Assembly (NCBI RefSeq): GCF_031323975.1 | Contig: NZ_JAVIWS010000001.1 | Span: 496,001-560,000 of the forward strand | DNA from: Escherichia ruysiae | GTDB taxonomy: Bacteria > Pseudomonadota > Gammaproteobacteria > Enterobacterales > Enterobacteriaceae | Reading direction: 5' to 3' | DNA: 64,000 nucleotides | Part shown: piece after piece, positions 6,469-41,842 of the stretch | Position numbering within the stretch: position 1 is the first letter of the stretch | How the letters are laid out: each line of letters begins with the position of its first letter | Translations under genes and position numbers: made by a program | Notes under the pieces: generated by a model | The model's database searches: none | Seen by the model: the letters and a program-made list of their open reading frames with translations, nothing else | What the model was told of the DNA's origin: nothing

Positions 6469-9400
6469 TCAGAACGTTTTCTTAAAGTTCAGCATCACGC
6501 CTTTATCGCTGATGCCGTCCTCTTTCCAGTGGTAAGCGTCCAGATGCAGCGAACTTTCTTTGCTGCTGTACTTCACGCCAACGCTTGCCAGGCTATTGAT
6601 ACCGCCGCCCTTCTGCCCGTCGTCAACATTAAAGTACTGACTGCCAGCTCCGGCAAGACTTGCTGTACGCTGGCTCTTCGCATAACTCAGGTTTGGGCCA
6701 CCTTCCAGCGTCGCGTTCGCGCTCCAGCCGTCTTTACCTGCGTAGTCCAGTTTCAGGCCAACGATGCCGTCCACCGCCGTTTCGCTGCCGCTGTTCATAT
6801 TCAGGTTAAAGTCACCGGCGTTGCGTTCCTGATAACCGCCTTCCAGCGTGTGGCGCAGTTTCACTCCGGCATACGGCGTTATTTTCAACCCTTCGCGTGG
6901 TTCAAAGGTTTTCGCCCCTTCGCTGCGGAACTCCAGGTACTGCTGTTTCACGTTGGTATCGGCTGTTTTACTGACGTCGCCGTAGGCTACGGCACGGCTG
7001 CTGTCGAGGTTATGAACATCATAACGCAGGGCGTTATTCCAGCTCATCCCGTTTTCGAACGCCATCTGGTGCTTCAGTCCAAAGAACTGGCTGTAGCCGC
7101 CGGTTACGCCGTTGTCCCCTGCCGAGTCAGAACCGTTACCATCCAGACGGGCGATCCCATACTCCAGGCTCAGGCTCTGGCTTTCACTCAGGTCGAGAGT
7201 TTTACGCAGCGCCAACATGTCATATTGCGTGTCGTTGCCCAGTTCCGCGCGCGGATCGCCTTTTGCCACCACGTTGAACGCCAGACCGTTGCCCACCTTC
7301 GGTGCGGCATCCGCCAGCATACTGAAGCGGTTGCTTAACACCCGTGCTTCACGGAATACGGTGGTCGCCTGACTGCCGCTGATTTGCTTAAGCGCACTGT
7401 TAAGCTCCGCCGTGGTGCCTACGTTCAGACTGGTGTATAGCTCGTTATTGGTGTAACCCGCGTCCAGCGCCTGCGCAACATCATTCACCGAGGCATCGGT
7501 AGCCACATCGGTATAAGCGTTTTTGTTCATGGTGACGTCAACGTTACCGCTGGCATCGGTGCTACCCTGCGCATTCCACACCACAGAGGTGGAGGTGATG
7601 GCATCAGCATCCGTCAGGTTACTGCCCTGCACCACGTTATCGAAGGTGACTGTGGTGTCTGCTGTGCCTGCGGCGAAGCCGGTGTTGATTTCCACGCCGC
7701 TCATGCTGGCATTGTTTACTTTCAGCTTACCGGCGCTGCCATCAGCGTTGGTTCCCACAACGTAGCCGTTGAGGCTGTTGGTGCCGCTCTCTTCGCCCGT
7801 TGTGTTATCAACAAACGATGTCACCGTGGTATTCGGCACATCCGGCAACGTGTAATCGCCGTAATGGACTTCGGTGGAGTTACCGTTGTTACCGTTAATA
7901 CCTTCCACGTTCACGCTGTCGCCCTGTTTGATCAGGCCTGACCCGGTTACGCCATCGGCGATCACTACCGTACCGTTGTTGACTACGTGGCCATTCGTCC
8001 CCAGCACACTGAACGCATAAGAATCATTGGCATAGATATTAATGGTGCCATTGTTCTCAATAACTGCGTCCGCCGTGGCATTGGCATCCAGTTGCATACC
8101 AATCAGGCCGGTATCGGTCGTGCCTTCCGTTCCCAGATTAATAATGCCCTTATTGACCAGTTGCGCGTTATTATTCCCTTCCATCGCCACGGTATTATTG
8201 CCGCTGATGTTCATGGTGCCGTCATTCTGCGCGACATAGTTGGTGTGCGTGAATTTCACGGCGCTGGCGTTATCATGATCGAAATTAATCTCGCCTTCAC
8301 TCATGTTCCAGAAGAACGCGTCCGTAGCTGCGGCGTTACTGGCGCTGACAACGACTGATTTGGCGATTGAATCCACTTTACCATTGTTAATAAAGCGCCC
8401 GTTCCCCCCCCAAATATTGACTGCGCCGTTGTGGGAGGAGTTCGTCAGTGACATATGCCCGGTGTTGTAGAGCGTGCCAGACTGGTTGATGTGAACGGCG
8501 TTTTTGTTGTTATCGAGAATAAATTCGCCGTGGTTGTTAAAAACGGCATTGTTATCGATTTCCAGCATCCCGGCATTATTGTCTTCGCTGCTGTTGCCCA
8601 GAATCCAGGTGCCGTCGTTATTCACCACTGCATTATTGGTTAATTTAGAACCATGTTTTACAATGCCGTCTTTTTGGTTATTGAAGATGCCGTTCTGCTG
8701 GTCGATGCGACTGGTGACGGTGCCGCTGTTGTTAAAGACGCCCGCTTTCTGCACCAGTTTATTAACCGTGCCAGAGTTGTTCACCTGCGAAGTATTTTTG
8801 CCAGCATACATTGTTACCTGGCCAGAAACCGTGCCATCGTTATTCAGCGTGCCGCCATCAACATCGATATTGCTAAGTGTACCCGCGTTATCGACCTCTC
8901 CGCCTTCGTTCAGTTTAATCTGGTTGTTGATATTTCCTGTTGCGGTATTTTCCAGTTCACCGTTCAGCACCGTCACCACTGGGCCAGAAATCGTACCGGA
9001 GTTGATGACGCTGCCTGGCGTGGTGTTAGTAATCACCACAGACTGAGCGAAATTCGTTGACTGCCCTTCGGTGCTGAGCGTGTCTCCCCCGGTGTAGACC
9101 AGGCTAACTGCCGGATCGGTCGGGTTATACTCACTGGAATTTTCACAAACGCCCAGCGTGCAAATGGTACCGTAATTAATAATGGTGCCTGAACCGTCGG
9201 TATAAAAAGCCTGGCCGACACCGGTATTAATATTAATCACGCCGGTCTTGTCGTTAATCGCCACGCCACTGCCAATCGCGCCCATCGCAAATAGCTGGTT
9301 ATCCTGCTGCTTAGTGACGTCTTCATCCGCCGTCAGATTGATAGTGCCCTGGTTTACCGCTGTACCGCCATTAAGTGCTAGCATACCAAAACCTTCATTC

Positions 9401-12400
9401 TTGACGTTGATGGTTCCGGTATTTAGCCCGGTAGCATCAGCCCAACCGGCGTCGGTTGAGCCTATCAGCATACCACCGCCCATCAAGTAAACAGTATCAG
9501 TTTGCCAATAAGTTTCACTGGTGATATCGCCGTTCTCATCCATAGTCGGAATAAAGCTATCGACGTTTATTTCTCCGTCATTGCTGGCGGTACCTTTTGA
9601 TGCAGAAACCCCATAGGTTCCTGCACCACGCAGATTGATTGTCGCGCCACTTTGGTTTTCGGCTTCCCCATAACCGCTTGCGAGCACCGCGTAGTAGGTT
9701 CTGTTAAGCCATCCCAGGGGATAAACGCCTTCTCCCCCTCCACCAACTGGAGAGAGCGTAGATGTCAGATTAATTACCCCACCTGAGGCATTGGATGCGA
9801 AGCTATCTTGCCCGTTAGAGCGCATTACTGCTGTTTTACCATCACTCGAACTGTCTGTTCCGGTTTTAACATTCATTGTTCCAGTATTGACGATCCTGGC
9901 ACCGCTAACAGCAGTCATGATTTCTTTCGCCGCCGAGGCGTTAATGATTCCTTTATTCTCTGCACTCGAACCAATACCATTCGCCGAAATGATCGAGTTA
10001 TGACCAAAAAAATTGGAGTCGCGAACCGGGCTGAAAATATCCGTAACGGAATTTTCATCAATTATAACCTGACCGCCTCCCGTAACATAAAAAAGCGACA
10101 CTGTACTGCGCACTGCGGTAACATCCAGAACAGAATGCCCACTGATATTAACCGTACTCTTACCAGAGACATTAATACCATTAATAACATGACCGCCGGT
10201 ATCCCCTGTTATATTTATACCGCCATTCAGATTAATGACATTATCATCCCCAATAACAACCACACCATCCAGTTCAGGCTGTTCGTCGTGTGCAGCACCA
10301 AATAAAGGAGAGTAGGCTTCAATATTTAAATTACCGCTTAAATTAACCGTGTTATTTTCACCGGTAACAATTAAACCGTTAAGATGTTCATCGGATGTCG
10401 TCGGCGATGTGCTCATATCTGAGGCCAGATTGATGTCACCCTCCAGCGTTACCTGGCTATCATTTCCGGCAATACTTATGCCCGTCGCCCCCTGGAAATT
10501 ACCGCTGTCATCCCGCTCATGCGTGACATTTATATCGCCACGCAGAGACACCAGTTCACGATCGCCAACGAGGGAAACACCAATGGCATTTTGCGAAACA
10601 TTAAGTTCACCGATGTTACCGAACTGCTCATCATCACCTTCGATCAGTACACCAACAGAATCTTTGTCGATAACGGTGATTTTACCAGTATTGCCAATTT
10701 TGGCATTTTTACCTTTTATATCAATACCATGCGAGGAACCACTGACGTAAAGATCGCCGTTCTGAAGAATGCTTACATCATCACCCATAACTCGCGTTCC
10801 GACGGTATTTTTACCATCTACGGACATATCACCGGAAATTTCAAGATTGTTGCCGTTGCCAGATAAATTTACGCCCGTCGCATTTTCGCCCGCAATGCTC
10901 AGCTCATACGTTGTCAGCGTGATGCTGTTATCGTTGCCGTTTACTTCCAGACCCGTAGTGGCGTCGTTAACAGACATCTTGCCTGAAAGTGAAACACTAC
11001 CTTCGTTACCGGCAACTTTAATCCCTGTACCGCTATTGTTAGTGGTGATATCCCCCACGTTGACAAAGGTTGCATTATCGCCATCGATCAGTACACCGAA
11101 TGGATTACCTTCGTGCCCCTTATCACCAACAGTAATATCACCAATGTTCATGAACGTGGCGTCACTGCCATCCAGCAATACGCCGATGGATTTATCATCC
11201 ACCACGGTAATATTGCCTTTGTTACTGACAATGGTGCCATTCCCCGTAACGTCAATACCGTGTGCAGCGTCACTGACGTAAAGATCGCCTTCCTGCTTGA
11301 TAAGTGCGTCATTACCAACAATTTTGGTCGCTGCCGAGTTTTCGCCATCGACGGTCATATTCCCTTTATTATCGATAGCGGCATCGTCACCGTTAATCAG
11401 ACTACCGGTACCGCCGTTGGTAAATATGGCGTCGCCCTGGGTATTAATCGTCGAGTTGTTGCCGTTAACAATAACGGCTGTACCGCCATTCACTTCGGTT
11501 TCGCCATTGTTATTGATGGTGATGTCATCACCAGTCAGGATACCCACCACGGAACCTTCGCCAATCGCAGTGGTTTTCCCGTCATTGTTCAGAACAATAT
11601 TATCGCCTTCCACGGTCATTACCGTACCGCCATTCAGCGCAGTGTTGCCGCCCAGGTCGGTAATAATGGCGTCACTCACTTTGATATCGTTGCCTGTTGT
11701 TCCATCAACCACCACGCCGGCTTCTTTGGTGATGTGGATTTTGCCTTCGTCGTCGTAGCTCCAGATGATTCCGCCCGCTTTGTTAACGCCTTCGAAGACT
11801 GCCGTGTTGCTGTCTTCATTTACTTTCCACTGCTTAACGATTGTCTGGCGACCATCTTTTGCCGTCAGGGTATAGCTGCCATCCGCATTCTCGGTGTAGG
11901 TAAAGGTTGCATTACGGATCTGCACCGTTTTTTCAGCTTGATCCCAGGTAACGTTGTTGTTGTATTTGATCGGATCCGGTTTGTCATCCGGCGGTACTGG
12001 CGTGTCTCCGCCATCGTCTGGCGGTACTGGTGTGTCTCCGCCATCGTCCGGCGGTACTGGCGTGTCTCCGCCATCGTCCGGCGGTACTGGTGTGTCTCCG
12101 CCATCGTCCGGCGGTACTGGCGTGTCTCCGCCATCGTCCGGCGGTACTGGTGTGTCTCCGCCATCGTCCGGCGGTACTGGCGTGTCTCCGCCATCGTCCG
12201 GCGGTACTGGCGTGTCTCCGCCATCGTCCGGCGGTACTGGCGTGTCTCCGCCATCGTCCGGCGGTACTGGCGTGTCTCCGCCATCGTCTGGCGGTACTGG
12301 CGTGTCTCCGCCATCGTCTGGCGGTACTGGTGTGTCTCCGCCATCATCCGGTGGTACTGGTGTATTACCGCCATCATCCGGCACCGGAGACGGATCGTCG

Positions 12401-12684
12401 TGATGATTATTATCATCGTGTAGGGCATAGACCGCGACACCAGTTACTACCGCCGCCAGACCAGCGGCGGCCCAGGGTAAAACGGCACTGTCTTTAAGAT
12501 CTCTACATTCTGCAGGTAAATGTTCAAGCTGTTCTTTATTTAATATTTGAATATTTGCCGGACATGATATTTTGCTGGATTTCCGTGTTTCGTCTGCTGA
12601 CTCGGTTGTAGTGGTATCCGCAGCCCATGTCTGGCTACTTAACGCCATCGCAACACATACAGACAACAATTTTTTCCTTTGCAT
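6469..12684 (-). CDS. ydbA: giant YdbA/BigA-type autotransporter adhesin
   Basis: 2071 residues, uninterrupted. An N-terminal signal peptide (about 1-22, ending SSQTWA-AD) is followed by a two-Cys segment, a hydrophobic stretch near 70-88 (VLPWAAAGLAAVVTGVAVYA), then an acidic proline-rich linker (about 98-231) made of the 10-residue repeat DGGDTPVPPD. The passenger (about 235-1780) consists of short repeats rich in N, G, T and D (for example GDDITINNNG), the signature of a right-handed beta-helix. Residues from about 1785 form an autotransporter beta-barrel ending in F (NFKKTF). The N-terminus resembles K-12 YdbA, which is split by insertion sequences there, and Salmonella BigA. I think this locus corresponds to the adhesin called UpaH in uropathogenic strains, but I am less sure of that. 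It is a surface-exposed protein, probably for adhesion or biofilm. SD AAGGAG lies just before the ATG. Confidence 0.9.
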   Translation of the reverse strand: MQRKKLLSVCVAMALSSQTWAADTTTTESADETRKSSKISCPANIQILNKEQLEHLPAECRDLKDSAVLPWAAAGLAAVVTGVAVYALHDDNNHHDDPSPVPDDGGNTPVPPDDGGDTPVPPDDGGDTPVPPDDGGDTPVPPDDGGDTPVPPDDGGDTPVPPDDGGDTPVPPDDGGDTPVPPDDGGDTPVPPDDGGDTPVPPDDGGDTPVPPDDGGDTPVPPDDGGDTPVPPDDKPDPIKYNNNVTWDQAEKTVQIRNATFTYTENADGSYTLTAKDGRQTIVKQWKVNEDSNTAVFEGVNKAGGIIWSYDDEGKIHITKEAGVVVDGTTGNDIKVSDAIITDLGGNTALNGGTVMTVEGDNIVLNNDGKTTAIGEGSVVGILTGDDITINNNGETEVNGGTAVIVNGNNSTINTQGDAIFTNGGTGSLINGDDAAIDNKGNMTVDGENSAATKIVGNDALIKQEGDLYVSDAAHGIDVTGNGTIVSNKGNITVVDDKSIGVLLDGSDATFMNIGDITVGDKGHEGNPFGVLIDGDNATFVNVGDITTNNSGTGIKVAGNEGSVSLSGKMSVNDATTGLEVNGNDNSITLTTYELSIAGENATGVNLSGNGNNLEISGDMSVDGKNTVGTRVMGDDVSILQNGDLYVSGSSHGIDIKGKNAKIGNTGKITVIDKDSVGVLIEGDDEQFGNIGELNVSQNAIGVSLVGDRELVSLRGDINVTHERDDSGNFQGATGISIAGNDSQVTLEGDINLASDMSTSPTTSDEHLNGLIVTGENNTVNLSGNLNIEAYSPLFGAAHDEQPELDGVVVIGDDNVINLNGGINITGDTGGHVINGINVSGKSTVNISGHSVLDVTAVRSTVSLFYVTGGGQVIIDENSVTDIFSPVRDSNFFGHNSIISANGIGSSAENKGIINASAAKEIMTAVSGARIVNTGTMNVKTGTDSSSDGKTAVMRSNGQDSFASNASGGVINLTSTLSPVGGGGEGVYPLGWLNRTYYAVLASGYGEAENQSGATINLRGAGTYGVSASKGTASNDGEINVDSFIPTMDENGDITSETYWQTDTVYLMGGGMLIGSTDAGWADATGLNTGTINVKNEGFGMLALNGGTAVNQGTINLTADEDVTKQQDNQLFAMGAIGSGVAINDKTGVININTGVGQAFYTDGSGTIINYGTICTLGVCENSSEYNPTDPAVSLVYTGGDTLSTEGQSTNFAQSVVITNTTPGSVINSGTISGPVVTVLNGELENTATGNINNQIKLNEGGEVDNAGTLSNIDVDGGTLNNDGTVSGQVTMYAGKNTSQVNNSGTVNKLVQKAGVFNNSGTVTSRIDQQNGIFNNQKDGIVKHGSKLTNNAVVNNDGTWILGNSSEDNNAGMLEIDNNAVFNNHGEFILDNNKNAVHINQSGTLYNTGHMSLTNSSHNGAVNIWGGNGRFINNGKVDSIAKSVVVSASNAAATDAFFWNMSEGEINFDHDNASAVKFTHTNYVAQNDGTMNISGNNTVAMEGNNNAQLVNKGIINLGTEGTTDTGLIGMQLDANATADAVIENNGTINIYANDSYAFSVLGTNGHVVNNGTVVIADGVTGSGLIKQGDSVNVEGINGNNGNSTEVHYGDYTLPDVPNTTVTSFVDNTTGEESGTNSLNGYVVGTNADGSAGKLKVNNASMSGVEINTGFAAGTADTTVTFDNVVQGSNLTDADAITSTSVVWNAQGSTDASGNVDVTMNKNAYTDVATDASVNDVAQALDAGYTNNELYTSLNVGTTAELNSALKQISGSQATTVFREARVLSNRFSMLADAAPKVGNGLAFNVVAKGDPRAELGNDTQYDMLALRKTLDLSESQSLSLEYGIARLDGNGSDSAGDNGVTGGYSQFFGLKHQMAFENGMSWNNALRYDVHNLDSSRAVAYGDVSKTADTNVKQQYLEFRSEGAKTFEPREGLKITPYAGVKLRHTLEGGYQERNAGDFNLNMNSGSETAVDGIVGLKLDYAGKDGWSANATLEGGPNLSYAKSQRTASLAGAGSQYFNVDDGQKGGGINSLASVGVKYSSKESSLHLDAYHWKEDGISDKGVMLNFKKTF
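11991..12390 (-). repeat. 13-unit 30-bp tandem repeat (VNTR) inside ydbA
   Basis: A 30-bp unit is repeated about 13 times, 12 of them nearly identical (12001-12360), each encoding the decapeptide DGGDTPVPPD. Third-position variants (cgtgtct versus tgtgtct; tcc versus tct) form a 60-bp higher-order pattern in 12001-12180, suggesting recent unequal duplication. Because 30 is a multiple of 3, gain or loss of units changes linker length without changing frame. Confidence 0.95.
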
Positions 12685-13089
12685 ATATAACTCCTTAAAA
12701 AATAGTTCCCGCGTAACAAACTACGCAAAACGTAAAAACAGAAAGCACTAAATGCCTGCAACGAAACATTCATTAAATAATAGTTATGTTATTTGTATGG
12801 TGAATATTAAGTCGAAGCAGTTTAAAAACCACATCAGAGCATTTATTAAATTATATTCTGCGAGCAAGTCATTTCAAACAATAATTAAAAACAGGCGAGA
12901 AAAAGACATTAATAATCCATTTACATCATGAATAGATTATTGGCTCACATCCACACAAATGATGAATTGTAATTAACAGACGAGATAATAATAGAATATA
13001 TAAACAGATCTGTTAATAAGACCTGCTTGGCTAAAAACACAAAGAATCATATAAACATATGTAATAAACATGTTGTTGTGAAATATAAT
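12685..13089. other. AT-rich intergenic region upstream of ydbA
   Basis: About 400 bases of very AT-rich sequence, probably holding the ydbA promoter on the minus strand. No open frame worth calling was seen. In K-12 the fea, tyn and paa genes lie between ydbL and ydbA; here there is only this spacer. Confidence 0.6.
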
Positions 13090-13413
13090 TTATTTTCGCA
13101 ACCATATACCATTAATCCCCTGTACATATTCACCCGGCTTCGCACGCGCGACAAGTTTTTGCCCTGCCAGTTTCGCTATCTCATCTGTGGATACATTATT
13201 CTGTTTTGCCAGTTGCTGGTAACTACGATTACGAGCTTCATTAATATCTCTTACCAATGCCTGTGTTTCAGCATCCGTTTCCAGCGCCACCAGGTAACCA
13301 TTAAGCGTTTCACCGACCCGCCCCTGACTTCTGGCTTCATTCAGAGTTAATGCCATCGCACTGCTACTCATCAGGCCAATAATCCACACTATTATGAGTA
13401 ATGTTCTTTTCAT
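13090..13413 (-). CDS. ydbL: YdbL, periplasmic DUF1318 protein
   Basis: 107 residues with an N-terminal signal peptide (about 1-21, ending SSAMA). It is the third gene of ydbH-ynbE-ydbL. Published work on E. coli reports that YdbL is a periplasmic, chaperone-like partner that modulates YdbH-YnbE assembly. I chose the second of two adjacent ATGs (13413) because GAGG lies 5 bases before it; the first leaves only 2. Several residues differ from my memory of K-12 (for example SQGRVGETLNG), pointing to a lineage not very close to K-12. Confidence 0.9.
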   Translation of the reverse strand: MKRTLLIIVWIIGLMSSSAMALTLNEARSQGRVGETLNGYLVALETDAETQALVRDINEARNRSYQQLAKQNNVSTDEIAKLAGQKLVARAKPGEYVQGINGIWLRK

Positions 13414-13420
13414 CATGACC

Positions 13421-13606
13421 TCAAAAAAGATCGCTACGAGTTTTAAGCAGGTCTTCAACATCTTTGTCCGCTTTGATGATGATCTCATGCTCAATTTTAA
13501 CGTTCATATTAATGGTGATTGGCTCCTTCGGCGCAGCCACCTCTATGCGCGGAGTGCAACCAACCAACATAAAAGAGGACGCGAGCGCGGCTATCACTAT
13601 TTTCAT
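13421..13606 (-). CDS. ynbE: YnbE, outer-membrane lipoprotein
   Basis: 61 residues. A short lipoprotein signal ends in the lipobox LVGC, so Cys17 would be lipidated. Family knowledge: YnbE multimerises and docks onto the C-terminus of YdbH by beta-strand augmentation, completing a bridge from inner to outer membrane used for glycerophospholipid transport. The start overlaps the ydbH stop by 4 bases (ATGA), so translation is probably coupled. The ydbL start follows 7 bases after its stop. Confidence 0.93.
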   Translation of the reverse strand: MKIVIAALASSFMLVGCTPRIEVAAPKEPITINMNVKIEHEIIIKADKDVEDLLKTRSDLF

Positions 13607-16242
13607 TGTTTTTCCTCACATTCTTTTCCTGACGGGCAGTCATTTTCCGGGATACGGGCATTCTGTTCCAGCCACGCCTGGAGATTATCGCCAAAGCGTA
13701 AACTGCGCCATAACGTAAAAATATTCTCTTCGTGACTGTAATTAAGATTCACAGTGCCTGTTTTGCCATCAACCCGACTATTACCGCTAATCGTTGCCTG
13801 CATGGTTAACACACCGAGATTATCTAAATTAATTTTTGTCGATGATCGATTAATTTCCATATAGCGCAACCAGTTGATGGCGGTTCCAGCGGTCATATTG
13901 TCTTTTGCTACTGCATCCGCAGTGTCTTTATCCAGACGTAAGGTCATTGGCCCGCTATTTGCCAGCCAACCGTCTTTCACTATCCATTTTTCATTGTTTA
14001 GCCATAACGGCAGTGCACCACTAAATGCCCCGGACATGGCGAATTGTTTCGGATTGACGGCGCTAACCAGTTCGCTGGATGAGAGATTATTCAGCCGCAA
14101 CAGCGCCGGGTCATGTTGCGGCATACGTAATTGTTTCATCAGCACGTTACCGCCTAACACATCGACGCTAACATCAGTCAACAGCAATGGTTCTTCTTCT
14201 GTCCACGGATAGCGCCCTTGCAAATCAGCCGTAATATTTTTCGCTGTCACCAGATTAATCACTTCGGCAATTCGCAACGTAACGGGGCCGCGAGTCCCCA
14301 GATGCCAGGCTCCATCGGCAAAACGGAAAGGCAGGACAAAATCGACACCGTTAACCTGATTATCTGGCATCCAGGCACTACCGCCTTTCAACACGCCGTG
14401 CCCTCCCGCGCGGAATCCTTGTTCCGGCGCAGCTGAAAATGCGACCTGGGCATACAGTTCGCCATCGCGTAAGTTCATCTTCCAGTCGGGTGGCACCAGC
14501 GGCTGGAATACAGTCAGTGATTGTTTAGGCCACCAGGCGTTACCGCGCAGACGAATACCGTCCCAGCGACCATTTACCCGAACCGGACCAATCTCGCCAG
14601 CATGTAAATCGCCTTTGAAGAGGAAATAAGTTGGTTCGCGCCCTTCAACACTAAATTTTAAGGTTGATGGCGGTAACACGCTGCCCCCCGTGAAAAGCGT
14701 TTGCCCTGCATCCAGCGAAAGCGCACCACTAAAAGACGGATTCTGCGTGTCGCGTACCCAGACAACAGGTTTCTCAAGAATTAAGCGCGGCTTTTCTACC
14801 GTCATCGTGCCATATTGCAACTGGTCGAAACCGGTCGAAAGATCGGTAAGCGTAATCGTGCTGTCATGCCACTCACCTTTTCCTGCGACATCCCAGGTGG
14901 CATTCATCGGGGTAAAACTGCCTTTTCCCCAGTAACGCCACTGCCAGCGTCCTGCATCAGGGAGAAAATCATTCGCCTGACCATCCATATGCAGCACAAA
15001 GTCGCCCAGTTCATTTTCATGTGCCTGCAAAATGGCCTGTAAACGCCCGTCAATACCACGTTGGGTGACTTTTACTCCCGCTAAAGGCCAGCGAATTTCA
15101 TCGATGTCCAGTGAATCGATGACTCTTCCCTTTGAACGTAATAACGCGCCAGGTTCAAAGGCCAGCGTTGGGTCAGCCAGACTTCCGCTTAGCTGCGCCG
15201 GTAAGCGAGCATATAAAATAAGATCCGCCTGTTTCGCTTCACCGGTCAGTTGCAGTGGCATCTGACTGTTATCCATGCTTAATTTTCCTGGGCCAAAATT
15301 AAGCACCGCATTGCCCTTACCTGCTTGCCCCTGGGTCAGCACACTCAGTCGACCACTAACCCATGCGTTCTCAAGCCCGGCCTGCCAGTTATCGACTTTG
15401 ACACCCAATCGCCCACTAAGGGGAAAACCTTCATATGGCCAGCTCCAGCGACCATCACTGACAGTCAATTGCTGACGGGTAATTTCCCACGGTAAATCGA
15501 GCAACGGATCGCCGGTATCTCGTGCCATCACAATCAATTGCCCGCTATTTTCCTGCCACTCGAGTTCAGCATCCACCAGCGACGGTTCCTGCGGCAAATT
15601 CAACGTCGCGGTAGCATGACCACTTACAGGAAGCCCATCCGGCACTAGCGGCAGAGTAAATTCCCCCACCAGTTTTACCAGCGGCTGATTTTCAAACGCG
15701 GCAACATCCAGTTCGCTGACTGTAAATTGTTGCCCTTTAAGCAGGCCTTGAAATTTAACTTTTTCGCCCTGATAACGCAGTTGCTGGATATCAGAGGTTA
15801 ATGCGAGAGAGAGTTTTCCCTGCCATTCCTGCCAGGGAGAAAAAATCAGTTTATCGATATTGATCCAGGTGTTAGGCAACATGGCCTGCCACTGCGCGAG
15901 GGTTTTCGGGGCGGCTGGAGATTGCTCTGTCTGCGGCAATTTCGCCAGGCAAGCAGAATCAAGTTCTACCGTGCCAACGTTCAATAACCAGCGGCTGGGA
16001 TGTGAAAGGCTGGCGTTGGTGATATGCGCAAGCTGACAATCTCCCACCAGATAACGGAGATCGGGAATGATTAAACCTTTACGCGTAATGCGTGGGCTTT
16101 CATCTAATGCAATACGTGTCCCGAGCGGTAGCCAGATGCCCACCAGCGTGGGAACCCACAATCCGAGCGTCATTAGCAACGTCAACGGCACAAGAATAAT
16201 CAGTAATAGCAGCGCGAGAACAGCTTTATATTTACCCAACAT
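13603..16242 (-). CDS. ydbH: YdbH, AsmA-like intermembrane lipid transport protein
   Basis: 879 residues, the K-12 length. One N-terminal transmembrane helix (about 7-30, ALLLLIILVPLTLLMTLGLW) anchors it in the inner membrane. The rest is periplasmic, built of amphipathic beta-strands typical of AsmA-like bridge proteins. Family knowledge: YdbH, TamB and YhdP are partly redundant carriers of phospholipid to the outer membrane. First gene of ydbH-ynbE-ydbL, divergent from ldhA with about 200 bases between them. Confidence 0.94.
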   Translation of the reverse strand: MLGKYKAVLALLLLIILVPLTLLMTLGLWVPTLVGIWLPLGTRIALDESPRITRKGLIIPDLRYLVGDCQLAHITNASLSHPSRWLLNVGTVELDSACLAKLPQTEQSPAAPKTLAQWQAMLPNTWINIDKLIFSPWQEWQGKLSLALTSDIQQLRYQGEKVKFQGLLKGQQFTVSELDVAAFENQPLVKLVGEFTLPLVPDGLPVSGHATATLNLPQEPSLVDAELEWQENSGQLIVMARDTGDPLLDLPWEITRQQLTVSDGRWSWPYEGFPLSGRLGVKVDNWQAGLENAWVSGRLSVLTQGQAGKGNAVLNFGPGKLSMDNSQMPLQLTGEAKQADLILYARLPAQLSGSLADPTLAFEPGALLRSKGRVIDSLDIDEIRWPLAGVKVTQRGIDGRLQAILQAHENELGDFVLHMDGQANDFLPDAGRWQWRYWGKGSFTPMNATWDVAGKGEWHDSTITLTDLSTGFDQLQYGTMTVEKPRLILEKPVVWVRDTQNPSFSGALSLDAGQTLFTGGSVLPPSTLKFSVEGREPTYFLFKGDLHAGEIGPVRVNGRWDGIRLRGNAWWPKQSLTVFQPLVPPDWKMNLRDGELYAQVAFSAAPEQGFRAGGHGVLKGGSAWMPDNQVNGVDFVLPFRFADGAWHLGTRGPVTLRIAEVINLVTAKNITADLQGRYPWTEEEPLLLTDVSVDVLGGNVLMKQLRMPQHDPALLRLNNLSSSELVSAVNPKQFAMSGAFSGALPLWLNNEKWIVKDGWLANSGPMTLRLDKDTADAVAKDNMTAGTAINWLRYMEINRSSTKINLDNLGVLTMQATISGNSRVDGKTGTVNLNYSHEENIFTLWRSLRFGDNLQAWLEQNARIPENDCPSGKECEEKQ

Positions 16243-16449
16243 GGGTAGTTAATATCCTGATTTAGCGAAAAATTAAGCGTTCAATACGGGTATTGTGGCA
16301 TGTTTAACCGTTCAGTTGAAGGTTGCGCCTACACTAAGCATAGTTGTTGATGAATTTTTCAATATGGTCATAGCTTTCAATTATATTTTAAATTTTGTAA
16401 AATATTTTTAGTAGCTTAAATGTGATTCAACATCACTGGAGAAAGTCTT

Positions 16450-17439
16450 ATGAAACTCGCCGTTTATAGCACAAAACAGTACGACAAGAAGTACCTGCAA
16501 CAGGTGAACGAGTCCTTTGGCTTTGAGCTGGAATTTTTTGACTTTCTGCTGACGGAAAAAACCGCCAAAACCGCCAATGGCTGCGAAGCGGTATGTATTT
16601 TCGTAAACGATGACGGCAGCCGCCCGGTGCTGGAAGAGCTGAAAAAGCACGGCGTTAAATATATCGCCCTGCGCTGTGCCGGTTTCAATAACGTCGATCT
16701 TGATGCGGCAAAAGAACTTGGGCTGAAAGTAGTCCGTGTTCCAGCCTACGATCCGGAAGCCGTCGCTGAACACGCTATCGGTATGATGATGACGCTGAAC
16801 CGCCGTATTCACCGCGCGTACCAGCGTACCCGTGACGCCAACTTCTCTCTGGAAGGTCTGACTGGCTTTACCATGTATGGCAAAACAGCGGGCGTTATCG
16901 GCACCGGTAAGATCGGTGTGGCGATGCTGCGCATTCTGAAAGGTTTTGGTATGCGTCTGCTTGCGTTCGATCCGTACCCAAGTGCGGCGGCGCTGGAACT
17001 TGGTGTGGAGTATGTTGATCTGCCGACCCTGTTCTCTGAATCAGACGTTATCTCCCTGCACTGCCCACTGACGCCGGAGAACTACCACCTGCTGAATGAG
17101 GCAGCGTTTGAACAGATGAAAAACGGCGTAATGATCGTCAACACCAGTCGTGGCGCATTGATTGATTCTCAGGCGGCAATTGAAGCTCTGAAAAACCAGA
17201 AAATTGGCTCGCTGGGGATGGACGTGTATGAAAACGAACGCGATCTGTTCTTTGAAGATAAATCCAACGACGTGATCCAGGATGACGTGTTCCGTCGTCT
17301 GTCTGCCTGCCATAACGTGCTGTTTACCGGACACCAGGCATTCCTGACGGCAGAAGCTCTGACCAGTATTTCCCAGACCACGCTGCAAAACTTAAGCAAT
17401 CTGGAAAAAGGCGAACCCTGCCCGAACGAACTGGTTTAA
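16450..17439 (+). CDS. ldhA: LdhA, fermentative D-lactate dehydrogenase
   Basis: 329 residues. It reduces pyruvate to D-lactate with NADH in the cytoplasm during mixed-acid fermentation. The NAD-binding glycine motif is GTGKIG, near residue 152. The catalytic Arg lies in NTSRGALID, the Glu in DVYENERD and the catalytic His in FTGHQAF, all as expected for the D-2-hydroxyacid dehydrogenase family. GGAGAAAG precedes the ATG. It is a single-gene unit with its own terminator. Confidence 0.98.
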   Translation: MKLAVYSTKQYDKKYLQQVNESFGFELEFFDFLLTEKTAKTANGCEAVCIFVNDDGSRPVLEELKKHGVKYIALRCAGFNNVDLDAAKELGLKVVRVPAYDPEAVAEHAIGMMMTLNRRIHRAYQRTRDANFSLEGLTGFTMYGKTAGVIGTGKIGVAMLRILKGFGMRLLAFDPYPSAAALELGVEYVDLPTLFSESDVISLHCPLTPENYHLLNEAAFEQMKNGVMIVNTSRGALIDSQAAIEALKNQKIGSLGMDVYENERDLFFEDKSNDVIQDDVFRRLSACHNVLFTGHQAFLTAEALTSISQTTLQNLSNLEKGEPCPNELV

Positions 17440-17444
17440 TCTTG

Positions 17445-17476
17445 CTGCTCCCCTGCAAGTCAGGGGAGCTTATTCA
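17445..17476 (+). terminator. ldhA rho-independent terminator
   Basis: GCTCCCCTG (17447-17455) pairs with CAGGGGAGC (17461-17469) across a 5-base loop, then TTATT. It starts 7 bases after the stop codon. Confidence 0.8.
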
Positions 17477-38587: not shown

Positions 38588-38595
38588 AACTCAAC

Positions 38596-38640
38596 AAAAC
38601 CGGATGACGATAATAATATTCGACATCCGGTTTTATTTAT
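38596..38640. terminator. bidirectional terminator between ynaI and the caspase/GH25 island
   Basis: AAAACCGGATG (38596-38606) pairs with CATCCGGTTTT (38624-38634), giving T-runs on both strands. It insulates the island from ynaI. Confidence 0.8.
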
Positions 38641-38644
38641 TACC

Positions 38645-40570
38645 TCAATTTACCGCAGCCAGAGCGACATTATTCTCACCCGCTTTAAACTGGGCATACT
38701 GTTCTTCAGTACCAAAGAATACTTCTGACTCTGTGCTGTGACCAATGCCCGGCACCTTTTCGTTTCCTGAATATTGCCAAAGTGTCCAGGGATTACGCCC
38801 CTCAAGCTTCACACCAGCTTGTCCCCAATACCCCATCCACACCATATACTGGTCGAACCGACTGTCCATGAAATGGGACAAATTATTATGATTGCCATAA
38901 AATATTGGTATTTTATGGTAATTTTTATATATCAGGGCAGCAAAACGTAAAATATCATTCCGTGCATTCACCATTCCCGATTTTTTAAAACAAGCCAGTT
39001 GGGTTGTATCTTCACCTTCTGGATTCACCAGTAAAATACCGGGAGGCAACATTTTCGGGTCTTCAGGCAGCAGGCTTTTTGCTGTTTCCAGTTGCGCCTC
39101 AGGAGTGCGGCAAAAATCAAATTTAAAATAGCCTCCGCGATCAAATTTTGAATCTGCTAATTGCTTCCAGTGAGCCTTAAACGACGAGTCTGGCCCTCTC
39201 CAGCCAACCACTCTCACGTAGACAAAACGCGCAGGTGATTTCTCCTGAAACAATTTCCAGTCGATTTCGCCATCGTTAGACGAGATATCATGGCCACTGA
39301 TCGGGTAAATATCCGGTGTTTTGAAGATACGGATATCAGGTCGGTTGGGAATTGCACTTACGGGGCCATAAGGAATTTCAATAGGTATTATATCTTTGTT
39401 CTTTGGTTCATCTGGCGCAGTAGGCGGTTCTTTAATAGAATATGCGGTCTTATCAACATTCGTAAATTCATCTGCATTCCCGGCTGATAATTGTGTTTTT
39501 TTATCCAGATGACTGACCGCAGGATCGTTAATAAAGAAGAATCCACCCGGTCCGGCTGGGTTTTCTGTTGCTCCTATCCAGGCATCACTAAGATGTATTC
39601 CTTTCCCTTCCTCGTCCAGTTTTTCATTGATTTTTATATATTGGTCGTTCACATAGATAAACAAACTTAATGTTCGGGTAATGCCCGCGTAGTATTCCTT
39701 TTTACCATCAATTTTTACCATATACGATTTCCCGAAGCGTTCGTCGGCAATGCCATCAGCAACTCCTTTTATAAGGCTATCAAAAAATACACTGCCTTTA
39801 TCTTTTTCCAGGGAATAAACTTCTGTTTTATCATCACCAGCGGCTATCGCATACGCACCTGGTTTACTATACGCGTTTGAATTCCCTGCGCCATCTGTCA
39901 TGCCAAAAAGACCTGAACCAAAACAAGCATTGACTAAAGTCAAAATATGGAAATAACGCTTTGCCAGAATGTTGAGTTGAGCATTCAAAGCTGGCATTTC
40001 ATACATACCTTTTGAACCATCGATATCTGTAGCATTACTCAAAACAAATGCCGGTGCCTTATCAGAATTACCATTTTGAGTGCCAAAACGCCCATGACCT
40101 GAATAAGCAATTAACAAGCGAGCTTTCTTATCAAACATCATCCCTCTGGCAGGGAGATATTCTTTCAGAAAATAATTAATGTTATCCAGTGACGCATCCT
40201 GATCTTTCAGTAAAATAACCTCATCAAACTTTTGCCCATTAATAAGAAAATCAGCCATTCTTTGACCGTCTACTGCAGCTGCTGGAATATCTGCATGTAA
40301 CAGTGGATATTTTTAAATTGAAATAATCAGCCCAATCGCGCGGGTTTTCGCTGCATCCTGATCTGGTATTTTTAACGCATCACTGATTCGGATATCCAGT
40401 TTACCAGGAGCCTCAGGCCCATAATGGATAAAAAAACGACAATACTCATCAGGAACCATTGCACCATTTTTACAAATATCATCTGCACGTGCATCTGATA
40501 TTCCCTGTGATATTCCGGCAACGAATAGCCCCAGAACTGATATACATAAAGTAAGCCATCGTCTGTTCAT
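38645..40570 (-). pseudogene. exported caspase-like (C14) protease fused to a degenerate GH25 domain, broken by one in-frame TAA
   Basis: Read as one frame of 641 codons plus stop with a single TAA at codon 86 (40313-40315). Codons 1-29 encode a signal peptide (cleavage ARA-DD). The frame then enters the first strand of a caspase fold (KTRAIGLIISI), is interrupted, and continues KYPLLHADIPAAAVDGQRMA in the same frame. The catalytic His is in YSGHGR (about 159) and Cys in VNACFGSG (about 216), in caspase order and spacing. A proline-rich linker (about 375-415) leads to a GH25-like domain (about 420-641). Its first Asp is kept (GHDIS), but the usual DxE is NPE (516-518), suggesting loss of wall hydrolysis. 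The piece from ATG 40258 lacks a signal, the first strand and a convincing SD. It follows the GH25 gene by 3 bases. Function unknown. Confidence 0.85.
40313..40315 (-). other. premature TAA in the caspase/GH25 gene
   Basis: Frame check: the next codon begins at 40312 and the downstream ATG at 40258, 54 bases apart, so both parts share one frame. The sequence around it, ISI-stop-KYP, matches the common caspase-like motif I-S-K-Y-P if the stop was TCA (Ser), a single C to A change. A sequencing error is also possible. Confidence 0.85.
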
Positions 40571-40573
40571 AAG

Positions 40574-41560
40574 TTAAAATTCCTGCACGCCCAAAGTGGT
40601 ATAAAATTCAGCAATTGGACCTTTATAAATACTGGCATCAAACTTCTTACTCGATCCTAAATTAAGCTGTGCTGCGTCGGTGAACTGCCAGATCGCCCAT
40701 TTTGTCTGGTTGATTGAACGCGGGGTTTCACTGGCCTGAGCCTGATTAGAGTAATCAGCCAGCCACAGTTTGTGATCTGCAACCTGGGCAAAACTATTTT
40801 CCCCACCAACGGCATCTTTCCACCAGGCTCGCGCAGTGTAGATAACCGGTTTACGCCCTAAATCGGCTTCGACCTGTGCGGTAAACGCCTTGATCATCGT
40901 TATAATTTCAGCAGGTTTACGCTTTTGCCAACGATCCTTACCCGTTGATGAGTCCACATCCCACTCCACATCCACCGCCGGTGGCATATCCGTTGCGCGT
41001 AATCCCCCGTTAGCTTTAATAATTTTAACAAACGTCATCGCCTGCTTACGTCCCCATGTTTCAGCGTCGTCTGCCGGAGTGCCGCTGGAAAGAAAATGAT
41101 ATGCTCCACGGTGTAATTTTACCCCCCGTTCCGTATCCCCGGCCCGTTGCCAGAAACCGGAAAATTCGGGATCGACATAACGCGTTCCTTGACTGGACTT
41201 CATATACAGAAACACAGACTTATTTTTTGCCAACAGTTCGATTGGAAAATTCTTACCGTTATGATGGCTGATATCCACTCCAAATAAAGAACTTGGTCGC
41301 GGTTGATTTAATACCGAGTCATAAGAGACATCAGTCGGAAATTTAAAGTATTTTTTTACTGCGAACGTGTCATATTCCATTTCACGGGAAAGATCTGATC
41401 CCAGGATTTTTACAAATAACTCCTGTCGTGAGAGATCATGAGTTAAGTTTTCCAGTCCCAGTGATGCGGCATTGGGAAGCGGCTCTGCGGCCAGACTAAA
41501 AGAAGAATAATGAGAGAGGAATAGAGAGATAACTAACGGAATAGCAGAGGCTTTTTTCAT
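40574..41560 (-). CDS. exported GH25 muramidase (lysozyme)
   Basis: 328 residues. A signal peptide (about 1-24, ending FSLA-AE) sends it to the periplasm or beyond. An unrecognised N-terminal segment (25-90) precedes the GH25 domain (about 91-325). The domain has its catalytic set: FGVDISHH (Asp96) and PAVDVEWD (Asp197, Glu199, Asp201), plus the terminal WQFTD strand. GH25 enzymes cut the beta-1,4 MurNAc-GlcNAc bond of peptidoglycan. It is the first gene of a two-gene unit; the caspase/GH25 gene starts 3 bases after its stop. It has an AT-rich upstream region of 280 bases. No immunity-like small gene is visible beside it. Not part of K-12 at this locus. Confidence 0.88.
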   Translation of the reverse strand: MKKASAIPLVISLFLSHYSSFSLAAEPLPNAASLGLENLTHDLSRQELFVKILGSDLSREMEYDTFAVKKYFKFPTDVSYDSVLNQPRPSSLFGVDISHHNGKNFPIELLAKNKSVFLYMKSSQGTRYVDPEFSGFWQRAGDTERGVKLHRGAYHFLSSGTPADDAETWGRKQAMTFVKIIKANGGLRATDMPPAVDVEWDVDSSTGKDRWQKRKPAEIITMIKAFTAQVEADLGRKPVIYTARAWWKDAVGGENSFAQVADHKLWLADYSNQAQASETPRSINQTKWAIWQFTDAAQLNLGSSKKFDASIYKGPIAEFYTTLGVQEF

Positions 41561-41800
41561 TTTACCACCCCATTTTTAGCTGTGTGTTTATTTTCAAATG
41601 AAGATGTTTTACAAGTGATGAAATGCATTCACGTTGTAAAAAAAGTAAAGCACAGCTTATATTTGGAGTATGTAATACAGCAGACAAATAAAATTTATGA
41701 TTAGAGTTTGTACTTAATATAAACTGGAAATTTCACAGTCTCATCTTGAGAGCAATCTTTTATAGGGTAAATTTAAAAAAGAGAGAAATTTTATTGGGGT
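41561..41800. other. AT-rich spacer with the likely island promoter
   Basis: About 240 very AT-rich bases between the GH25 gene and the mppA terminator. It must hold the minus-strand promoter of the GH25/caspase pair. No open frame was seen. Such AT richness fits H-NS-type silencing of acquired DNA, which is inference. Confidence 0.4.
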
Positions 41801-41803
41801 TGT

Positions 41804-41836
41804 AAAATCTGGCGCAACTTTTTGCGCCAGATGAGA
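41804..41836 (-). terminator. mppA rho-independent terminator
   Basis: ATCTGGCGCAA (41807-41817) pairs with TTGCGCCAGAT (41822-41832). On the minus strand it is followed by TTTACAA, 10 bases after the mppA stop. Confidence 0.85.
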
Positions 41837-41842
41837 ACATAA

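Follow-up and report, generated by a model that had tools for sequence, protein, structure and literature searches.

We analysed a window of 64,000 nucleotides from Escherichia ruysiae (contig NZ_JAVIWS010000001.1, positions 496,001 to 560,000), with emphasis on an islet between ynaI and mppA that holds two minus-strand frames 3 bases apart, as an initial annotation of the sequence had described. Gene 1 is predicted to encode a GH25 muramidase with an export signal, and gene 2 belongs to a family in which a caspase fold is joined to a GH25-like domain; in this genome the gene 2 frame is interrupted. The islet has the following features:

38588..41842, no strand: whole islet between ynaI and mppA, against about 45 base pairs at the same place in the annotated E. 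coli locus (L031)
40574..41560, minus strand: gene 1, predicted GH25 muramidase with export signal, 328 amino acids, intact
41486..41560, minus strand: signal-peptide-like segment of gene 1, residues ~1-25, from its hydrophobic N-terminus
41300..41485, minus strand: conserved N-terminal extension of gene 1 before the barrel, residues 26-87
41297..41299, minus strand: Arg88 codon of gene 1 at the extension/barrel junction, candidate processing site
40583..41290, minus strand: GH25 barrel of gene 1, residues 91-326, with invariant D96, D197 and E199
40571..40573, no strand: intergenic gap of 3 bases, identical in 7/7 Escherichia carriers
38645..40570, minus strand: gene 2 frame, caspase-GH25 fusion, interrupted in this genome
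40313-40315, minus strand: in-frame TAA at codon 86 of gene 2
38645..40258, minus strand: longest open frame remaining in gene 2, 537 amino acids, lacking the signal segment and the first caspase strand
39518..40381, minus strand: caspase-fold domain of gene 2, frame residues 64-351, with H159 and C216, placed from the P0002 model
39359..39517, minus strand: low-confidence proline-containing linker of gene 2, residues 352-404 (predicted local distance difference test, pLDDT, below 50 at 352-384 and 387-393)
38672..39325, minus strand: GH25-like domain of gene 2, residues 416-633, catalytic DxE lost

Domains of the two proteins

The product of gene 1 matched Pfam GH25 (PF01183) with 99.7 bits, against a curated cut-off of 27, and its DxE site is intact. 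In alignment A3, which contains the window protein and 62 of the 120 partner matches listed (of 508), the residues D96, D197 and E199, which we take to be catalytic, were present in all 63 rows. A hydrophobic N-terminal segment was found in 56/63 rows, while the same test at internal offsets gave 0, 0 and 1 of 63. Among the solved GH25 entries listed, 13/19 aligned to gene 1 only from residue 87-92 onward. The gene is free of stops in 7/7 Escherichia carriers. By its sequence, the predicted muramidase of gene 1 carries both an export signal and an additional N-terminal region ahead of the GH25 barrel.

The gene 2 frame has the motifs YSGHGR and VNACFGSG, then a linker that contains prolines, then a domain resembling GH25 (49.8 bits). 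All of these had been recognised in the initial annotation, together with the hydrophobic N-terminal segments of both frames and the intact active site of gene 1. The caspase fold postulated there is predicted with confidence in an intact Escherichia relative (P0002), for which the AlphaFold2 model shows both a caspase and a GH25 fold at a mean pLDDT of 89.8. With Pfam PF00656, P0001 scored 25.4 bits (cut-off 21.4) and 26/30 rows of alignment A1 matched at E≤0.01. Fused homologues were compared in alignment A2, which holds 102 of the 107 matches (P0005, P0078, P0099, P0102 and P0107 were omitted as partial or remote). The caspase dyad H159 and C216 was present in 102/102 of them, C33 and C44 occurred together in 97/102, and C487 and C527 in 101/102. 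A hydrophobic N-terminal segment was found in 85/102 fused proteins, compared with 0, 16, 4 and 0 at four internal offsets. The DxE of the fused GH25 domain is intact in 14/102 homologues and lost in 88/102; P0001 and P0002 lack both DxE residues, and the window sequence reads identically there. The proposed label of pseudo-GH25 thus holds for the Escherichia branch and for those 88 relatives, and fails for the 14 that keep the motif. The gene 2 family is accordingly best described as a predicted exported caspase fold tethered to a GH25 domain that lacks the catalytic acid in most lineages.

Gene 2 had been presented as a full-length gene of 641 codons plus stop, and the TAA at codon 86 was missed. 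Because of this premature stop, and barring an assembly error at that codon, gene 2 has probably lost its activity here, and the muramidase alone would be expected to work. The remaining 537 amino acids gave no Pfam caspase match even at E≤1, only a GH25 match. Uninterrupted homologues were found in L003-L006, P0001 and P0002; the first four are the same loci as L032, L033, L009 and L008 and not additional carriers. P0001, which represents a cluster of 105 members, has 641 amino acids, is 99% identical and is uninterrupted. The gene is also open in G1029, a genome of the same species as the window genome that holds the same locus as L003. Among the 12 Escherichia genomes searched, gene 2 was open in 4, broken in 3 (the window genome, G1028 and G1032) and absent from 5. 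In G1028 (L035, L041) and G1032 (L034, L042) the caspase-GH25 gene is split into two frames, and the adjoining GH25 gene is open.

Pairing, inheritance and selection

Pairing of gene 2 homologues with GH25, which the initial annotation had named beforehand as decisive for its two-component idea, was found. Two independent protein searches yielded 107 fused clusters and 508 gene 1 clusters. In 37/107 fused clusters the longest contig had exactly the same size as that of a gene 1 cluster among the 120 listed (of 508), and control comparisons gave 0-1 matches at each of 16 shifted values. On the same strand and immediately upstream, gene 1 accompanies gene 2 in 7/7 Escherichia carriers and in 4/4 plasmid matches with at least 80% coverage of the fused protein; the full-length plasmid carriers are Rhizobium ruizarguesonis, R. 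lusitanum, R. leguminosarum and Sinorhizobium terangae. A further plasmid, p_3 of R. lusitanum (L062, 5937-8817), holds a GH25 gene followed by two frames that resemble the halves of an interrupted caspase-GH25 gene; about 1 kb further along is a gene with a glucosaminidase domain. Many Sinorhizobium and Rhizobium replicons (e.g. H107-H112) align to the linker and GH25 part of P0094 (approximately residues 327-612), and not to its caspase part.

The distance matrices of gene 1 and gene 2 were strongly correlated (r = 0.905) over 42 of 43 pairs, P0102 being omitted as too short; 0/2000 permutations reached this value and the highest gave 0.54. This correlation shows shared inheritance, not interaction. 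An origin by tandem duplication of one GH25 gene was not supported, as fused and partner domains form separate clades with Shimodaira-Hasegawa-like approximate likelihood ratio support of 99 and 100%, and 13 free GH25 proteins group on the partner side, in a quick, midpoint-rooted tree of 35/102 fused and 29/63 partner rows with 27/74 weak inner branches. A phage origin was likewise rejected: the fused protein was matched over 80% of its length in 0/50,697 phage records. A scan of viral contigs gave 43 stretches fitting the pattern and nothing related to the fused gene; distantly related GH25 proteins of the gene 1 kind are encoded at 18 viral loci.

Full-length loci were found in 3/295 genomes within the family, all of a single genus. 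There were no others among 369 within the class, beyond GH25-only matches at E≤1e-25, and no others among 398 within the phylum at E≤1e-60; these alignment searches scored at most three candidates per genome. The family of G401, chosen through TctC (PF03401) with the aim of reaching Burkholderiales, gave 0/399, an empty result that shows nothing by itself. Since proteins named from Achromobacter, Ralstonia, Caballeronia and others occur among the fused matches, we say that full-length carriers are rare, not absent. Overall, the pair is found again in distant proteobacteria, and breakage of gene 2 is recurrent.

Between Escherichia lineages, the ratio of nonsynonymous to synonymous substitution rates (dN/dS) was 0.07-0.11 for gene 2 and 0.04-0.06 for gene 1, with 0.01-0.03 for mppA and 0.01-0.15 for ynaI in the flanks. 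These values point to purifying selection on both genes in Escherichia. Between the window and L003, which belong to the same species, gene 2 had 5 nonsynonymous and 3 synonymous codon changes and gene 1 had 6 and 5, all of them small counts.

The window is an Escherichia-type chromosome whose flanks are 92-93% identical to E. coli. Its gene order is ogt, fnr, uspE, ynaI, islet, mppA, mpaA, ycjG, tpx and, presumably, tyrR; the names other than the last follow the order in L031. The guanine plus cytosine fraction of the 2-kb blocks spanning the islet was 0.43 and 0.42, compared with 0.43-0.58 in the remaining blocks of the window. No islet match was obtained by megablast or blastn in an E. coli collection of 5426 complete genomes, from which genomes very near the window's own may be left out; in public records the carriers L003, L005 and P0005 are named E. 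coli. A promoter scan was uninformative (10 found, 8.7 expected). Elsewhere in the window, an uninterrupted gene of 2071 codons (6469-12684, minus strand) matches the BigA/YdbA domains (PF25784, PF25783); ydbA is disrupted in E. coli K-12.

A candidate switch at Arg88 and competing explanations

The reading that we tentatively put forward, with a probability of roughly one in three, is that the two genes form an exported module in which a wall-docked caspase controls the partner muramidase by a cut at Arg88. The dead GH25 domain would hold the protease on peptidoglycan or on peptidoglycan fragments, the caspase of gene 2 would cut after Arg, and the muramidase would be controlled by a cut at the conserved Arg88, between its N-terminal extension and its barrel. 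The outcome would be a protease-zymogen switch outside the cytoplasm with wall cleavage as its output, which may serve lysis of the cell itself under attack, or lysis of neighbours.

The pairing, shared inheritance, purifying selection, retained protease dyad, loss of the fused glycosidase site and export-like segments described above are consistent with this proposal, and so are the following observations. Position 88 is Arg in 62/62 ungapped rows of 63, and positions 85-87, 89 and 90 have entropies of 1.7-3.2 bits. The junction Arg recurs in 5/5 rhizobial plasmid partners, although one of these has it displaced by a single residue, and in 7/7 Escherichia carriers. Junctions of free GH25 proteins were sought at 22 loci, 15 of which were readable (13 cellular and 2 viral), and Arg at an equal distance from the barrel was seen in 0/15. 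With regard to the protease, the accessible text of one paper places the S1 residues D365 of MALT1, D95 of TbMCA2 and D163 of gingipain on the alpha1 helix, and D462 of MALT1 and D211 of TbMCA2 on loop L4 (PMC4357240). D101 of gene 2, which is Asp in 102/102 fused homologues and sits in model helix 96-112, would by our own matching of positions be the equivalent of the alpha1 residues.

It should be underlined that several observations weigh against this reading. Basic residues recur near this junction in the 13 cellular free proteins: Lys stands at the distance of Arg88 in 4 of them, Arg lies one position farther out in 3, and 9 carry an F-x-[FY]-P motif resembling the FxFP of the partner. 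Upon this re-check the value of Arg88 as a pair-specific mark was weakened, and our confidence in the Arg88 mechanism, and in the broader reading built on it, was lowered for that reason. The gene 1 model is fairly well ordered around Arg88 (mean pLDDT 86 for residues 81-90), and this residue could have a structural role. With 2wag, the top match among the solved entries, the alignment already begins at residue 58, and the extension is therefore not entirely new to GH25 enzymes. The Arg pocket of the caspase is only half supported, since the alpha1 residue Asp101 is present and the L4 position, placed by analogy, is N214 (Asn in 101/102). Furthermore, gene 2 is broken in 3/7 Escherichia carriers and gene 1 is open in 7/7; a muramidase gene that outlives its protease would not favour a strict zymogen. 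The counts of hydrophobic segments in both proteins come from a simple test and not from SignalP, and both genes are less constrained than mppA in terms of dN/dS.

Somewhat doubtful, and the best placed of the alternatives, is an exported weapon or scavenging pair, in which both enzymes would be released or held at the cell surface and would act jointly, the muramidase on the walls of other cells, the protease on exposed proteins and the dead GH25 domain in targeting. The export-like segments on both proteins are in line with such a role, a patchy distribution and carriage on plasmids fit competition traits, and the solved GH25 matches include phage lysins and autolysins. However, the islet has no third frame of at least 90 amino acids, the size range examined, as a possible immunity gene, and the conserved Arg88 would be left unexplained.

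The initial annotation had considered an anti-phage sensor of wall damage or lysins, in which the dead GH25 domain binds wall fragments or lysin products and turns on the caspase, so that the infected cell is stopped or killed. The rhizobial plasmids give this idea its context: conflict-type genes lie within about 8 kb of the pair in 4/4 full-length loci. They encode a CHAT-TPR protein in L027, a second caspase in L028, and a Septu-like PtuA/PtuB protein and a patatin in L030. In L029, from Sinorhizobium terangae, a caspase-EAD1 gene, a gene for an 814-amino-acid protein and DO-GTPase1/DO-GTPase2 adjoin the pair and form a cluster (12101-17476) that resembles a conflict system. This neighbourhood is suggestive only. 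In Escherichia, on the other hand, the islet sits among housekeeping genes. Neither P0002 nor gene 1 matched a PADLOC model at E≤0.001 (0 families for each), and the scan of viral contigs, as described above, lacked a relative of the fused gene. We regard a sensor as rather unlikely.

It is quite unlikely that the islet is best described as a decaying remnant, in which the Escherichia caspase half is being lost as costly or unneeded, the present copy is idle and the muramidase alone may persist. The stop at codon 86 fits this description, as do the frames broken in G1028 and G1032, the apparent split in R. lusitanum p_3 and the 5 nonsynonymous against 3 synonymous codon changes in gene 2 between the window and L003. 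Purifying selection between lineages and the 4 uninterrupted copies among the 12 Escherichia genomes argue against it, and it covers the local copy, not the family.

A self-releasing fusion of the polymorphic-toxin type, in which the caspase would cut its own linker and free the C-terminal GH25 domain, agrees with the order of caspase, low-confidence linker and C-terminal GH25 in gene 2 and is nevertheless highly improbable: the freed domain would be catalytically dead in 88/102 homologues, linker 352-404 has no Lys/Arg column kept in at least 80/102 rows, and the partner gene would be unexplained. Equally improbable is an ordinary accessory of peptidoglycan turnover tied to the neighbouring mppA-mpaA-ycjG recycling genes, which draws on the mppA and ynaI flanks in 7/7 Escherichia carriers and on mpaA and ycjG following in the window, and against which stand the other neighbours in rhizobial plasmids, the lack of a match in the E. 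coli collection and a gene 2 that is absent or broken in 8/12 Escherichia genomes.

Precedents and meaning

Compared with known GH25 muramidases (PF01183; solved as 2wag and 1jfx), gene 1 is set apart by a conserved N-terminal region with a conserved Arg, and the fused domain of gene 2 by the loss of DxE in 88/102. Compared with caspase homologues, metacaspases and orthocaspases (Peptidase_C14, PF00656), gene 2 differs in its pseudo-GH25 tether, its muramidase partner and the Asn at position -2 from the catalytic Cys. Exported caspase homologues had already been noted in a 2012 survey of prokaryotes, whose accessible text also describes four sequences in which Amidase_2, a peptidoglycan hydrolase domain, is fused to a caspase homologue, and an operon of Geobacter with an amidase beside a metacaspase; the authors suggest programmed cell death (PMC3501461). 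The hydrolase in those cases is an amidase and not GH25, and that text describes no muramidase partner (PMC3501461).

In the accessible account of EAD1 NTP-dependent (nucleoside triphosphate-dependent) conflict systems, some EAD1-linked effectors are a lysozyme-like domain and a peptidoglycan peptidase, within systems that have several peptidases (PMC7159879); the present pair has neither EAD1 nor NTPase, and GH25 is absent from the main text of that paper. Exported polymorphic toxins, as far as the accessible text describes them, are Sec-exported like gene 2, and their caspase domain, which serves as releasing peptidase, likewise precedes a C-terminal domain (PMC3482391). Gene 2 differs from these in that its C-terminal domain is mostly a dead GH25 and the active GH25 is encoded by a separate gene. 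Bacterial gasdermins make membrane pores. The present pair, unlike gasdermin systems, has export signals and would act by cleaving the wall. The two-gene logic of protease and pro-effector would be shared with the bacterial gasdermins and their caspase-like proteases (PMC9079055, accessible text), provided that the Arg88 proposal is correct.

No description of a caspase-GH25 fusion or of this pair was found in the literature searched, where most subscription journals are missing, and the overlap of 'caspase' and 'GH25' held nothing on the pair, as judged by titles and the starts of abstracts. Because caspase-amidase proteins, EAD1 lysozyme-like effectors and polymorphic-toxin caspases are known, the parts of the pair have precedents; the combination is undescribed in the literature searched. 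With respect to the initial annotation, what it had observed is partly confirmed and how it had interpreted this is partly supported.

We consider it doubtful, at the broader level, that these genes represent a caspase-controlled lysozyme outside the cytoplasm, in which a wall-moored exported caspase would activate a co-exported pro-muramidase at Arg and thereby provide proteobacteria, Escherichia lineages among them, with a wall-based form of programmed lysis, or with defence. In the 2012 survey, as far as its text is accessible, E. coli was listed without metacaspases (PMC3501461), whereas several Escherichia lineages carry a caspase homologue with an export signal that is evolutionarily tied to a muramidase partner. 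The fused protein has retained its protease residues, and its glycosidase domain has lost the catalytic ones. Should the protease control the muramidase, caspase biology and peptidoglycan cleavage would meet in a small, testable module of two proteins.

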